NCBI GenBank assembly: GCA_947178255.1
Contig: CAMWXP010000008.1
Coordinates: forward strand, 1-45,843
Length of the DNA: 45,843 bases
Source: an uncultured Clostridia bacterium
Lineage (GTDB): Bacteria; Bacillota; Clostridia; Christensenellales; Pumilibacteraceae
Direction of reading: 5' to 3'
Part shown: in pieces, positions 26,931 to 30,170 of the stretch
Layout: every line of letters starts with the position of its first letter
Position numbering within the stretch: the stretch's first letter is position 1
Position numbers and translations under genes: made by a program
The notes under the pieces: generated by a model
What the model saw: only the letters and a program-made list of their open reading frames with translations
Database searches by the model: none
What the model was told of the DNA's origin: nothing

Positions 26931-27395
26931 TTAAAACTCAATGTAAGGCCTTACTAATGCCACCAGCGAGTTTTCTATAACCAGTTGATTGCCGTCCACT
27001 TCTATTGTAATCGCTTCGTCCGAACGGCTGACGAGCGTTCCCTCGTACTGCTTTACCTTTGTGCCCTTGATGGGTGCAAACAGCTTGACTTCCACCTTTT
27101 CGCCGTAATTGCGCTCAAAGTCGCGTTGGGTCTTGAACGGCCTGTCCAGCCCCGGTGACGATACGTCCAGGTGGTACGGCCTGCCGTTTGTCGGATCGAG
27201 CGCGTCAAGCGGTCCGTCGAGCGCGTTGGATACCGTTTCGCAATCGTCAAGGCTTACGCCGTGTTCGCTTGCTATAAATACCGTAAGGTGCATATCGCCG
27301 TACTGCGACTTGTACTCCACGTCCACAAGCTCATAGCCCAATTTTTCGAGCACGTCTTGTACTACGGGTATTGCCTTTTCTATAACGCTGTTTAT
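26931..27395 (-). CDS. rimP: Ribosome maturation factor RimP, apparent ATA start
   Basis: A 154-residue protein for 30S assembly. VLEKLGYELVDVEYKSQYG, DDCETVSNALDGPLDALD and YHLDVSSPGLDRPFKTQRDF are family landmarks. A perfect GGAGGT (27401-27406) sits five bases before ATA (27393-27395), giving an N-terminus that begins where RimP normally begins (NSVIEKAIPVV). No ATG, GTG or TTG lies at a sensible distance; the only alternative, TTG at 27444-27446, has no spaced ribosome site, lies in a hairpin and would add 17 residues that look non-homologous. CTG upstream is also possible. Confidence 0.9.
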   Translation of the reverse strand: MNSVIEKAIPVVQDVLEKLGYELVDVEYKSQYGDMHLTVFIASEHGVSLDDCETVSNALDGPLDALDPTNGRPYHLDVSSPGLDRPFKTQRDFERNYGEKVEVKLFAPIKGTKVKQYEGTLVSRSDEAITIEVDGNQLVIENSLVALVRPYIEF

Positions 27396-27427
27396 GGTAA
27401 ACCTCCGAAAGTACCTACACAGTAATT

Positions 27428-27451
27428 GAGAGCTGGCAAAAACCAACTCTC
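27428..27451 (-). promoter_or_regulatory. Hairpin in the rimP-nusA-infB leader
   Basis: On the minus strand GAGAGTTGG (27443-27451) pairs fully, with one G-U, with CCAGCTCTC (27428-27436) around a six-base loop, about 20 bases after the predicted +1 and 21 bases before the rimP ribosome site. A weaker outer pairing of GTAC (27466-27469 and 27411-27414) would bring the ribosome site next to the stem. A control function is inference. Confidence 0.5.
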
Positions 27452-27476
27452 ATGCTAAACTTATAGTACCTTTAAT

Positions 27477-27505
27477 AATATAACACTTATGCGCCCTTTT
27501 TGCAA
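27477..27505 (-). promoter_or_regulatory. Sigma-A promoter of the rimP-nusA-infB operon
   Basis: Minus-strand TTGCAA (27500-27505), 17-base spacer, TATATT (27477-27482) preceded by TGT. Predicted +1 near 27470 leaves about 75 bases of leader to rimP. Confidence 0.8.
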
Positions 27506-27537
27506 GCGTTTTAACTGTTTTTACCGAAAAATCTTTC

Positions 27538-27575
27538 CTACTTCTTTTTGGAAAGAAGTAGCAAGAAAATCTTGC
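27538..27575 (-). terminator. Two tandem hairpins after the PolC-like gene, possible terminator
   Basis: A perfect 10-bp hairpin (CTACTTCTTT 27538-27547 with AAAGAAGTAG 27552-27561, 4-base loop) stands beside GCAAG/CTTGC (27561-27565 and 27571-27575). On the minus strand the first is followed by GAAAGATTTTT, so the T run is a few bases late. It lies between the PolC-like stop and the rimP promoter. The surrounding 240 bases hold no gene. Confidence 0.5.
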
Positions 27576-27638
27576 TTTATAGTGTTGCCTTAAAATAAAT
27601 GTACTTTATATTAAAACGCTTGACATTTCAAAAAATCT

Positions 27639-29123
27639 TTATGATTTTGCGAGTAGCTTTTTCATTGCGATAAACGCTTTGGCGGTTGCCGCGGCGTCGG
27701 ACAGTGCGCGGTGCGCGTTGTCGTTGCTTAATCCCAGGCTCGCCAACACGTTGTCGAGCGACAGTCTTGCAATGCCCGGTATAGCGGCAGGCGCGATACC
27801 CATTGTATCGAACGTACGGCGATTACCAAACGCCCACCCGCTGCGGTTGCCGCCGCGCAATAAGAAGGGAAAATCAAAACCAATGTTGTGCCCAATCAGC
27901 GAGCAGCCGTAAGTAAACTTGTAAAAGTCGGGCAAAATATCCTCGAACAGCGGCTGACCTTTTACCATTTCGTTGGTTATGCCCGTCTTTTCCACCACCT
28001 CGGGCGGAATTTCTCTGCGCGGGTCTATGAGCGTGGAAAAGCTTTCTTTCAGTTTGCCGTCGCTTATCTTGACAGCGCCAAGCTCGGTCGGCCTGTCATA
28101 AATAACAGATAATCCCGTCGTTTCGAAGTCGAACACGACAAAGTCGCCTTTAAGCGACGGCGGTACGTCCATGCTGCCGTCGAACATACTCGATTGAACA
28201 AGCACCTCGTAATTTTGCGGAACGATAAGTCCGTAAGATTTCGGCTCGGCTTTTAGCGGCGGCGGGGTCAAACCCTCCGCCGTGCAAAGAGATATTTCCT
28301 TGACCGTCATTGAAGCTTCGTTGCGCATCCCGTCGTATTCTACATTGCCTAATACGCAAACAAGTTTATTTATCAATTCGTATGCAGTAGCAATGCTCTT
28401 GCCCATTCCGTTAGGAAAGAATTTGCACTGCAACGATAAATCGCCGTCATAAATCAAAAACCGATCGTACGCCCTGCCGCCCTTACTGGTAAACTCGGTT
28501 TGCATAGCCAAAATTCCGCACACGGCCACATTATATTCATTCGTTGTGATTGCCGATATGGCGCGGGCTTTGTCGGGCTTAAAGTCGCCTATATACGGCT
28601 GCACTGAAGTAATTATATATTCCTTTTTGGTGCCCTGCGCCAACGCTTGCGCCGAACCTCCCGACTCGTAATCCACTACTTCCACGTCAACCGTTACGTC
28701 CTCGACGTAGTTGTTTTGCAAAAACTCTTTAAGCCGAGGCAAATAATCGTTTTTTGCAAGCTCATGCATAGCACTGTGCATTTTTAGCTTTACTTTTACG
28801 TTCGGCTCGGTCTCTGCGGTTATTCCGTGCGACATAGACGAAACGTAATTGAACTTTTCGGTAAACCTAACCACAGCAATCCTAAGCGCCGCCGCCGTTA
28901 AAGCGTCGTCCTTAATTTTGAGTTTAACGGGCGTATGAAAACCGCAAGCTTCTTTAACAATATCGGTGAGCTCTCGCAAATTATCGTCTACAAATGCCCT
29001 ATCCGATTTTTTGCATACAACGGTAACCTCGGCGTTATTGCCGTTAAATGTTACACAAGGAAAGCGCAAAATGCCGTACTTGCCGTTTGATTTTTCGTTA
29101 ATACTTTTGTATATTTCGTTCAT
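27639..29123 (-). CDS. PolC-derived protein: N-terminal, OB and DEDDh exonuclease domains only
   Basis: A 494-residue protein at the locus where full PolC (about 1,400 residues) normally stands, between ispG and rimP. Residues 1-170 resemble the PolC N-terminal domain, 188-280 the OB domain (ITTNEYNVAVCGIL, RFLIYDGDLSLQCKFF), and 327-490 the proofreading exonuclease with FDFETTG (D332, E334), GHNIGFD (D417) and HRALSD (H471, D476): a complete DEDDh set. Missing are the PHP domain in which the exonuclease is normally embedded and the whole polymerase part. EVLVQSSMF (306-314) aligns with the PHP opening ELHLHTPMS of PolC, with both metal-binding histidines lost. Only 243 bases, with a promoter, separate it from rimP, so no polymerase remnant follows. 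Likely a free proofreading or repair exonuclease; partner unknown. Its ATG lies six bases after ispG. Confidence 0.88.
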   Translation of the reverse strand: MNEIYKSINEKSNGKYGILRFPCVTFNGNNAEVTVVCKKSDRAFVDDNLRELTDIVKEACGFHTPVKLKIKDDALTAAALRIAVVRFTEKFNYVSSMSHGITAETEPNVKVKLKMHSAMHELAKNDYLPRLKEFLQNNYVEDVTVDVEVVDYESGGSAQALAQGTKKEYIITSVQPYIGDFKPDKARAISAITTNEYNVAVCGILAMQTEFTSKGGRAYDRFLIYDGDLSLQCKFFPNGMGKSIATAYELINKLVCVLGNVEYDGMRNEASMTVKEISLCTAEGLTPPPLKAEPKSYGLIVPQNYEVLVQSSMFDGSMDVPPSLKGDFVVFDFETTGLSVIYDRPTELGAVKISDGKLKESFSTLIDPRREIPPEVVEKTGITNEMVKGQPLFEDILPDFYKFTYGCSLIGHNIGFDFPFLLRGGNRSGWAFGNRRTFDTMGIAPAAIPGIARLSLDNVLASLGLSNDNAHRALSDAAATAKAFIAMKKLLAKS

Positions 29124-29129
29124 AACGTT

Positions 29130-30170
29130 TTATCCATTTATTTTTTCGTTAATAAGTCCGAGCAGTGTGGAAACAATCTCGTCGGTATTGATAGTACTTA
29201 CCACCTTGCCTTTTACAAACAGCGCGGCTTTGCCGTTACCGCCGCCCGCCACACCGAAGTCGGCGTCAGCAGCTTCGCCCGGTCCGTTTACCACACAGCC
29301 CATAACGGCTACTTTGACAGGCTTATGTATATGTTCGGTTTCGGCTTTCAGCCTGTCAACTATCGCCTTTAAATCGTACTTACAGCGTGAGCAAGTGGGA
29401 CACGATATTATTTCGCAATAGTTTTTGTCGGCACCCACCTCTTGCAACACCGTTTTTGCGGCGAGCACCTCGTTTATCGAATCGCCCGACAACGACACGC
29501 GCACAGTGTCGCCTATACCGTCCAGCAGCAACGAGCCTATGCCGATTGCCGAGCGCACAACACCGCGCTCGCCCGTACCGCTTTCGGTAACGCCCAAGTG
29601 CAACGGATAGTCCACCTGCGCGGCAAGCTTGCGGTACGCTTCGACCATGGTTTTTACGTTAGACGATTTAACCGATATCACTATATCGTCAAATCCGTAC
29701 TTTTCCAAAATGCGCACATGCTTTAACGCGCTTTCGACCAGCGCGGCGCTTTTTTCCATGCCCAAAAGTTCTTTTTCGAGCGAACCGGTATTTACGCCTA
29801 TGCGAATAGGCACGCCGTGCATTTTACACGCGTCGACAACATGTTTAACCTTGTTTTCGTCACCTATATTACCGGGGTTGAACCTGATTTTATCAAACCC
29901 GATTTCACAGCACTTTACCGCTATTCGGTAATCGAACTGAATGTCCGCGACAAGCGGCATATCGAACTTACCGATAAGCGGCTTGCACGCCTCGACCTCC
30001 GCGTCGCTCGACACCGCAAGTCGCGCTATATCGCAGCCCGCGTTTTGAAGCCGCGTAAGCTGATCAGCCGTTGCACGCGTATCCAGCGTGTCGGTATTGG
30101 TCATCGACTGTACGGCTATGGGTGCGCCCCCGCCGATCACTATATTTTTTATTTTAACCGTTTTACTCAC
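29130..30170 (-). CDS. ispG: 4-hydroxy-3-methylbut-2-enyl-diphosphate synthase
   Basis: A 346-residue [4Fe-4S] enzyme of the MEP pathway. TIM barrel: GGGAPIAVQSMTNTDT, RFNPGNIGD, RIGVNTGSLEK, PLHLGVTESG. The cluster cysteines lie in ISCPTCSRCKYD and GCVVNGPGEA. Length is usual. GTG is the probable start (30168-30170), nine bases after the rseP stop with no clear ribosome site, so translation may be coupled. The cluster would be supplied by the nifS system at 39042-40148. Confidence 0.96.
   Translation of the reverse strand: MSKTVKIKNIVIGGGAPIAVQSMTNTDTLDTRATADQLTRLQNAGCDIARLAVSSDAEVEACKPLIGKFDMPLVADIQFDYRIAVKCCEIGFDKIRFNPGNIGDENKVKHVVDACKMHGVPIRIGVNTGSLEKELLGMEKSAALVESALKHVRILEKYGFDDIVISVKSSNVKTMVEAYRKLAAQVDYPLHLGVTESGTGERGVVRSAIGIGSLLLDGIGDTVRVSLSGDSINEVLAAKTVLQEVGADKNYCEIISCPTCSRCKYDLKAIVDRLKAETEHIHKPVKVAVMGCVVNGPGEAADADFGVAGGGNGKAALFVKGKVVSTINTDEIVSTLLGLINEKING

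Follow-up and report, generated by a model that had tools for sequence, protein, structure and literature searches.

The window analyzed here is a stretch of 45,843 nucleotides from an uncultured Clostridia bacterium of the GTDB order Christensenellales. Its minus strand carries, in the order uppS, cdsA, ispC, rseP, ispG, short-polC gene, rimP, nusA, ylxR, ylxQ, and infB (names read off the translations), the usual clostridial neighborhood of polC. The gene in the place of polC is an open reading frame of 494 codons (Table 1), and the plus strand in that frame contains many stops. A sequence-only reading of this DNA had put a 494-residue protein between ispG and rimP, at the polC slot; the frame and its neighbors bear this out, with the minus strand now added. 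A comparable neighborhood surrounds full-length polC in relatives, and the short form occupies the same position between ispG and rimP. The ispG gene adjoins the short form in most relatives looked at and is possibly co-transcribed with it.

Table 1. Features of the short-polC locus in the window.
Feature	Positions	Strand	Basis or remark
Polymerase-less PolC gene	27639..29123	-	494 aa + stop; dN/dS ~0.09
PolC-type N-terminal domain (NTD), residues 1-165	28629..29123	-	two alpha/beta subdomains in model; hhalign
OB domain in PolC position, residues 166-285	28269..28628	-	profile matches; within fold match to E. faecium PolC 9qpc
Linker with PxxYxxVxP replacing first half of PHP, residues 286-326	28146..28268	-	conservation in 106 distinct relatives
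QSSMF, residues 310-314, predicted sliding-clamp binding motif (QxxLF type)	28182..28196	-	conserved pattern vs shuffled linkers
DEDDh 3'-5' exonuclease, residues 327-494	27642..28145	-	catalytic D332 E334 D417 H471 D476; Pfam, profile, and fold matches
ispG	29130..30170	-	6 bases upstream of short-polC gene
rimP	26931..27395	-	apparent ATA start
Spacer short-polC gene/rimP	27396..27638	-	243 bases; promoter-like TTGCAA-17-TATATT at 27505-27477

The spacer 3' of the gene has the length given in the sequence-only reading. The promoter placed there is less secure, promoter-like matches over 2.5 kb being at chance level (5 vs 3.0 +/- 1.9 in shuffles), as are terminator-like matches (5 vs 3.9 +/- 2.3). 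The probable start of rimP is an ATA at 27395-27393 (-), behind a GGAGG site; it is the same in a 98%-identical relative (L013), and three other loci (L014-L016) have GTG in its place. Just upstream of rimP lies an inverted repeat, GAGAGTTGG...CCAGCTCTC (window 27428-27451, -), with no Rfam match at the gathering score; the whole window likewise contains no Rfam family at that score.

Domain architecture and relation to PolC

Pfam recognizes in the protein the exonuclease alone (RNase_T, residues 329-484, E 8.8e-33). D332, E334, D417, H471, and D476 are all present, so that the exonuclease is complete, as the sequence-only reading had it. Equally in line with that reading, neither a PHP nor a polymerase domain was found in the 494 residues by Pfam, and genome searches with PF07733 and PF02811 miss the protein. 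The PolC model TIGR01405 gives 132.6 bits against a cut-off of 1043, the NCBIfam PolC models matching best over the exonuclease part. Over the same part TIGR00573 exceeds its cut-off (80.4 vs 71.5 bits), and the proteobacterial dnaQ equivalog TIGR01406 stays below its own (77.5 vs 222.7 bits). In profile searches the exonuclease matches PolC chains 2p1j (E 9.6e-54) and 9qpc (E 1.2e-52) best, with chains of DinG and DnaQ ranking lower. The OB region matches PolC 3f2b (E 5e-4), and its own profile recovers 40 of 52 full PolCs at E<1e-3, besides weaker matches to 10 of 41 DnaE rows.

The NTD of PolC is not resolved in 9qpc, according to passages of PMC12592400, and was therefore examined by profile. 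Compared by hhalign with an alignment of 11 full PolCs (13 of the 52 fitted a strict PHP-opening pattern, and 11 of these were long enough), NTD and OB together match with a probability of 99.4% (E 1.6e-21) and the NTD alone matches the PolC NTD with 96.2% (E 2e-9). Only this profile-profile comparison detected the NTD, a plain HMM search with the NTD alone giving no significant match among the full PolCs. The PolC-like N-terminal domain proposed earlier is upheld on these grounds.

An AlphaFold2 model from 33 sequences (mean pLDDT 88.4, pTM 0.64) begins with two alpha/beta subdomains, followed by an OB barrel; a linker largely devoid of regular secondary structure then leads to the exonuclease. 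In the NTD pLDDT is 77-93 up to residue 150 and <50 at residues 153-165; in the linker confidence is low (58) only at residues 311-320. The best Foldseek match is E. faecium PolC 9qpc (E 8.3e-17). In VIA-align, residues 173-494 of the model pair with 217-593 of 9qpc, covering OB and exonuclease (Z 22.2, 265 aligned, rmsd 23.1, the high rmsd reflecting a different placement of the two domains); S. aureus DinG aligns with Z 23.9 over the exonuclease alone. Residues 1-245 were hardly covered by the structure search, so no fold is claimed for the NTD. Alignment to PolC combined with structure prediction, suggested with the sequence-only reading, gives a fold match to 9qpc for OB and exonuclease and a profile match for NTD and OB.

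Distribution of the short form and C-family polymerases of the clade

The window genome (1.9 Mb, 96.24% complete, 110 contigs) contains a single protein matched by PF07733, a DnaE of 1192 aa on contig 45. TIGR01405 finds nothing over the PolC cut-off in it, returning exonuclease-like pieces and the contig 45 DnaE only. A second full-length PolC, which would have contradicted the sequence-only reading, was thus not found in this genome. The split PolC polymerase which that reading supposed to be coded elsewhere is rejected, the search for PolC palm/fingers and DnaE genes having yielded one DnaE as the only C-family match. The PHP site of this DnaE is perfect, and HHDHEHCDH is present in 40 of 41 aligned DnaE rows, the remaining row being without that region; the idea that DnaE has lost its PHP, leaving the short PolC as its sole proofreader, was rejected on this count.

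Among the own genome and its relatives, 59 of 61 have a match to the short form, the two misses being 78% and 67% complete. Within the genus it is present in 19 of 20 genomes (own included), in one of them (G003) split over two frames. For the order, 198 genomes of at least 90% completeness (own included) were sampled and their families sorted as short or full by match patterns and loci, giving 128 genomes in 15 short families and 70 genomes in 12 full families. The short group has one PF07733 match per genome in 115 cases, two in 11 and none in 2; the full group has three in 63, four in 3, two in 3, and one in 1. A full PolC is inferred to give two such matches, and 66 of the 70 full-group genomes have the pattern of DnaE plus full PolC. 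The 11 short-clade genomes with two matches gave no PolC over the cut-off with TIGR01405; the second match is a DnaE-like frame of 1072 aa in G224 and of 802 aa in G105, and the nine others likewise have a second PF07733 match. One genome (G070) of family f11, which otherwise has the full-PolC pattern, shows one C-family match and no PolC over the cut-off, either a separate loss of PolC or an assembly gap.

A short frame is listed in 107 of the 128 short-group genomes (495-759 codons, 102 of these at 490-560). The 21 others belong to families f17 (8 genomes) and f20 (13). Twelve of them (8 of f17, 4 of f20) were viewed at ispG, and all twelve have an adjoining frame of 461-517 codons as fetched, several of these frames ending at the stretch edge. 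Together with G055 the short form is seen in 120 of 128 genomes (107 + 12 + 1), with 8 f20 genomes outside the count, and its position at the locus is verified for those genomes whose stretch was fetched.

In a class-wide sample of 293 genomes, 237 have a match, and 16 genomes are listed as own or same order. Outside the order no short form occurs among the matches listed, these being either exonuclease parts of long frames or small DnaQ-like ones. The different replisome architecture for Firmicutes suggested by the sequence-only reading therefore shrinks to one clade within the window's order, among the matches listed in this sample. Because the PolC frames outside the order are full-length (among the matches listed), we regard the short form as the derived state.

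Of the best 80 loci in a scan of named contigs, not assigned to order, 34 have a short frame, 38 a full one, and 8 a partial one; one of the 34 (L160) ends at a contig edge and is left out of later counts. The named short-form records are all MAGs and include Candidatus Gallimonas caecicola (L124) and Candidatus Coproplasma avicola (L127). Many of the record titles, not all, point to animal guts.

In sister families the same slot holds a full PolC, of 1331-1479 aa in 13 stretches and of 1239 and 959 aa in two cut by contig ends. In 19 of 20 short-family stretches the short form is accompanied by one or more of the expected neighbors; the twentieth (L075, family f17) is another exonuclease, the f17 short form being visible at the ispG locus. 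The expected neighbors accompany 13 of 15 full-family stretches, the exceptions being L099 and L105. The latter (G048, family f13) is a full-length PolC frame in which the exonuclease residues are lost, with SRSTE instead of DEDHD.

In a DnaE tree of 41 rows one branch separates 28 short-clade from 13 full-PolC rows (100/100), and in an exonuclease tree made by a quick method 24 short forms group together (SH-aLRT 91). As far as sequence trees can tell, both fit a single truncation. In six comparisons within the genus dN/dS is 0.085-0.092 for the whole gene and 0.05-0.08 for the exonuclease, the lowest of the computable parts, OB not being computable in three of the six. Profiles and loci together support the central claim of the sequence-only reading, namely that PolC survives at its own locus as a stand-alone protein of NTD, OB, and exonuclease.

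Linker motif and catalytic residues

Between OB and exonuclease, full PolCs have KRVELHLHTxMS and the first half of PHP; the short forms have there a linker with PxxYxxVxP followed by Q-x-x-[LIM]-F. The counts refer to 106 distinct proteins, obtained from 171 scanned loci of which 124 have the short form (L075, L151, L160, and L163 excluded by hand). Y297 is kept in 102 of the 106, and P302, the second P of PxxYxxVxP, in 105. Consensus clamp motifs read QL[S/D]LF or QxxLF, and E. coli QADMF likewise has M at position four (passages of PMC12309361). The strict pattern Q..[LIM][FYL] is found in 74 of 90 exonuclease-intact and 2 of 16 exonuclease-dead proteins (3.7% in shuffled linkers), a looser clamp pattern in 80/90 and 5/16, and Q at the aligned motif position in 80/90 and 12/16, a comparison of intact with dead proteins that rests on about three independent lineages. 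Six of the 16 intact proteins missing the strict motif have the looser form. Since Q is kept in 12 of the 16 dead proteins, motif and catalysis appear only loosely coupled.

Motif counts and model agree in placing a QxxLF-type motif in an unstructured segment, as in a sliding-clamp client. Full PolCs have the same pattern in their last 60 residues (41/48, a few being other matches), so that, judging by these motifs, the linker seems to have regained the clamp contact that disappeared together with the polymerase. The sequence-only reading took EVLVQSSMF for a worn PHP opening. This is rejected as unsupported: the linker profile matches nothing in 52 full PolCs, and the stretch is a Q-x-x-[LIM]-F conserved across the 106 relatives, its conserved positions being those of the clamp motif. 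The motif may nevertheless have arisen inside a PHP remnant.

The DEDHD residues are intact in 90 of the 106 distinct proteins and lost in 16, several of which are cut before the last motif, all having at least one earlier catalytic residue lost. The statement of the sequence-only reading that all catalytic residues stay is thus true of the window protein and the 90, and fails for the 16, where the protein is kept. The losses (L071, L072, L073, L074, L229-L240) occur in all 8 f17 genomes, in one genus of family f1 (G026, G146), and in f20 in the 6 genomes, out of 8, whose residues were read. Also of f20 are G184, which is intact (L089), and G174, with a strong full-length match only. Representatives of the catalytic-loss lineages fall at three separate places on the DnaE tree.

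Proposed role in the replisome

PolC of B. subtilis and E. faecium (9qpc) shares with the short form the locus, the NTD-OB order, and the exonuclease family with its residues; the short form differs in having neither PHP, polymerase core, nor C-terminal QLSLF-type motif, and in carrying a clamp-type motif in the OB-exonuclease linker. The epsilon subunit (DnaQ) of E. coli Pol III is similarly a separate DEDDh proofreader beside a DnaE, with its clamp motif after the exonuclease, whereas the short form is PolC-derived with NTD and OB in front of the exonuclease. The noncanonical mycobacterial DnaQ is unlike short PolC in origin and architecture. It is likewise a DEDDh proofreader beside the active PHP proofreader of DnaE1 (passages of PMC12926913), and epsilon too binds the clamp, weakly (PMC12309361, in part). 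Noncanonical X-family polymerases without polymerase activity also represent a family member kept for its exonuclease (PMC12926913, in part), but in another polymerase family and with a PHP domain, not DEDDh, as the exonuclease. PolCs without exonuclease, noted for Clostridia and Negativicutes in passages of PMC3919608, are a modular loss in mirror image, the exonuclease being lost and the polymerase kept.

A functional precedent comes from B. subtilis, where DnaE is proofread in trans by the exonuclease of PolC within a complex of template, DnaE, and PolC (PMC5627055, in part). That work used an exonuclease-proficient, polymerase-deficient PolC, to which the short form is a natural counterpart. 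B. subtilis DnaE has no proofreading of its own (same passages), in contrast to the DnaE of the clade with its intact PHP site.

On sequence evidence, an NTD-OB-linker-exonuclease protein occupies the polC slot in a genome whose one C-family polymerase found is a DnaE with intact PHP, is under purifying selection, and carries a clamp-type linker motif. We infer from this NTD docking, OB contact, clamp binding, and trimming of DnaE errors, and consider it fairly probable that the protein, derived from PolC and docked on the clamp, proofreads DnaE in trans as a separate subunit, the PHP-polymerase body having been lost once in the clade ancestor. According to this proposal the body of PolC would have disappeared in the ancestor of a large Clostridia clade, with the remainder surviving as a replisome subunit. 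Its N-terminal domain would dock on the clamp loader, a step drawn by analogy from the interaction proposed for the PolC NTD (PMC3919608, in part); the OB domain would touch the single-stranded template; QSSMF would take one cleft of the sliding clamp, DnaE being able to take the other via QMSFF; and the DEDDh exonuclease would trim those 3' ends that DnaE leaves mispaired. The C-terminal clamp motif, lost with the polymerase, would have its substitute in the linker. The result would be trans proofreading of DnaE as PolC performs it in B. subtilis, minus the polymerase; in its working the protein would resemble epsilon, with descent from PolC.

Because the DnaE PHP site is intact too, the short PolC would be the second of two proofreaders, and with this site intact in 40/41 rows a further proofreader is not strictly needed. 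The 16 proteins kept without their catalytic residues indicate that selection is not on proofreading alone and that the scaffold probably matters too. The selection for a separate proofreading subunit inferred in the sequence-only reading holds as far as strong purifying selection is concerned, and does not hold as the sole cause. Catalytic losses and the intact PHP of DnaE, both read from sequence, together suggest that short PolC is probably a second proofreader plus scaffold.

The protein could alternatively be mainly a structural replisome adaptor, its NTD-OB-linker part linking clamp loader, template, and clamp with the exonuclease as an optional passenger. The dead proteins are still encoded by unbroken frames of about 500 codons (42-64% identity within lineages in seven pairs, 26% in one pair), and the near-invariance of Y and second P in PxxYxxVxP points the same way. 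This role is rather unlikely, however, given that every catalytic residue is kept in 90/106, that within the genus no computable part has a lower dN/dS than the exonuclease, and that the dead proteins are mostly without the strict clamp motif. A DEDDh nuclease of repair or RNA processing, no longer in the replisome, is improbable: such domains act in many pathways, the matches include DinG and RNase T, and the DinG exonuclease aligns as well as that of PolC, but the conserved clamp-type motif, the retained PolC NTD and OB, and the polC locus all speak against it. A decaying PolC relic, or an assembly deletion with full PolC elsewhere (named in the sequence-only reading as refuting it), can hardly be the explanation in spite of the MAG origin of the named records and a window genome in 110 contigs, because the short form recurs in 19/20 genomes of the genus and in 15 families, no PolC exceeds the cut-off in the window genome or the 11 clade genomes with two PF07733 matches, and dN/dS is about 0.09.

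Replicase sets are given by Timinskas et al. as DnaE1 alone, PolC+DnaE1, and PolC+DnaE3, with a single DnaE1 in some Clostridia (PMC3919608, in part), and passages of a 2026 survey give the same three (PMC12926913). DnaE1-only Clostridia are therefore already in print (PMC3919608); the retained half-PolC is the part for which no description was found, a PolC without polymerase being absent from the abstract openings and passages of the literature searched. Beyond the proofreading subunit itself, the chances seem evenly balanced that the clade has a fourth kind of replicase set among bacteria, in which DnaE1 is accompanied by a polymerase-less PolC that connects clamp loader, template, and clamp, proofreads DnaE in most lineages, and is purely structural where catalytic residues are lost. 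If true, this would add to the three sets of the surveys and show which parts of PolC are worth keeping without the polymerase. It would also make testable the question of Timinskas et al., in the passages cited, of how work is divided between PolC and DnaE1 in Clostridia. PolC polymerase inhibitors such as ibezapolstat would find no target in the clade, a point of relevance to which commensals these drugs spare.

Two minor observations concern other proteins of the window genome. At about residue 502 of its DnaE (L106), nine alignment columns are occupied in 60% or more of the short-clade DnaE rows and in no more than 15% of the full-PolC ones; these columns could indicate where a partner docks, or simply reflect ancestry. 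On contig 49 (L107:917-1510) lies another DEDDh exonuclease frame, of 198 aa (FPSDYTVVDIETNGL), which outscores the short PolC against the PolC model. Of the 20 genomes of the genus, 16 have frames of 187-241 aa with a similar match, and some other Clostridia, among the matches listed, have frames of 192-195 aa.
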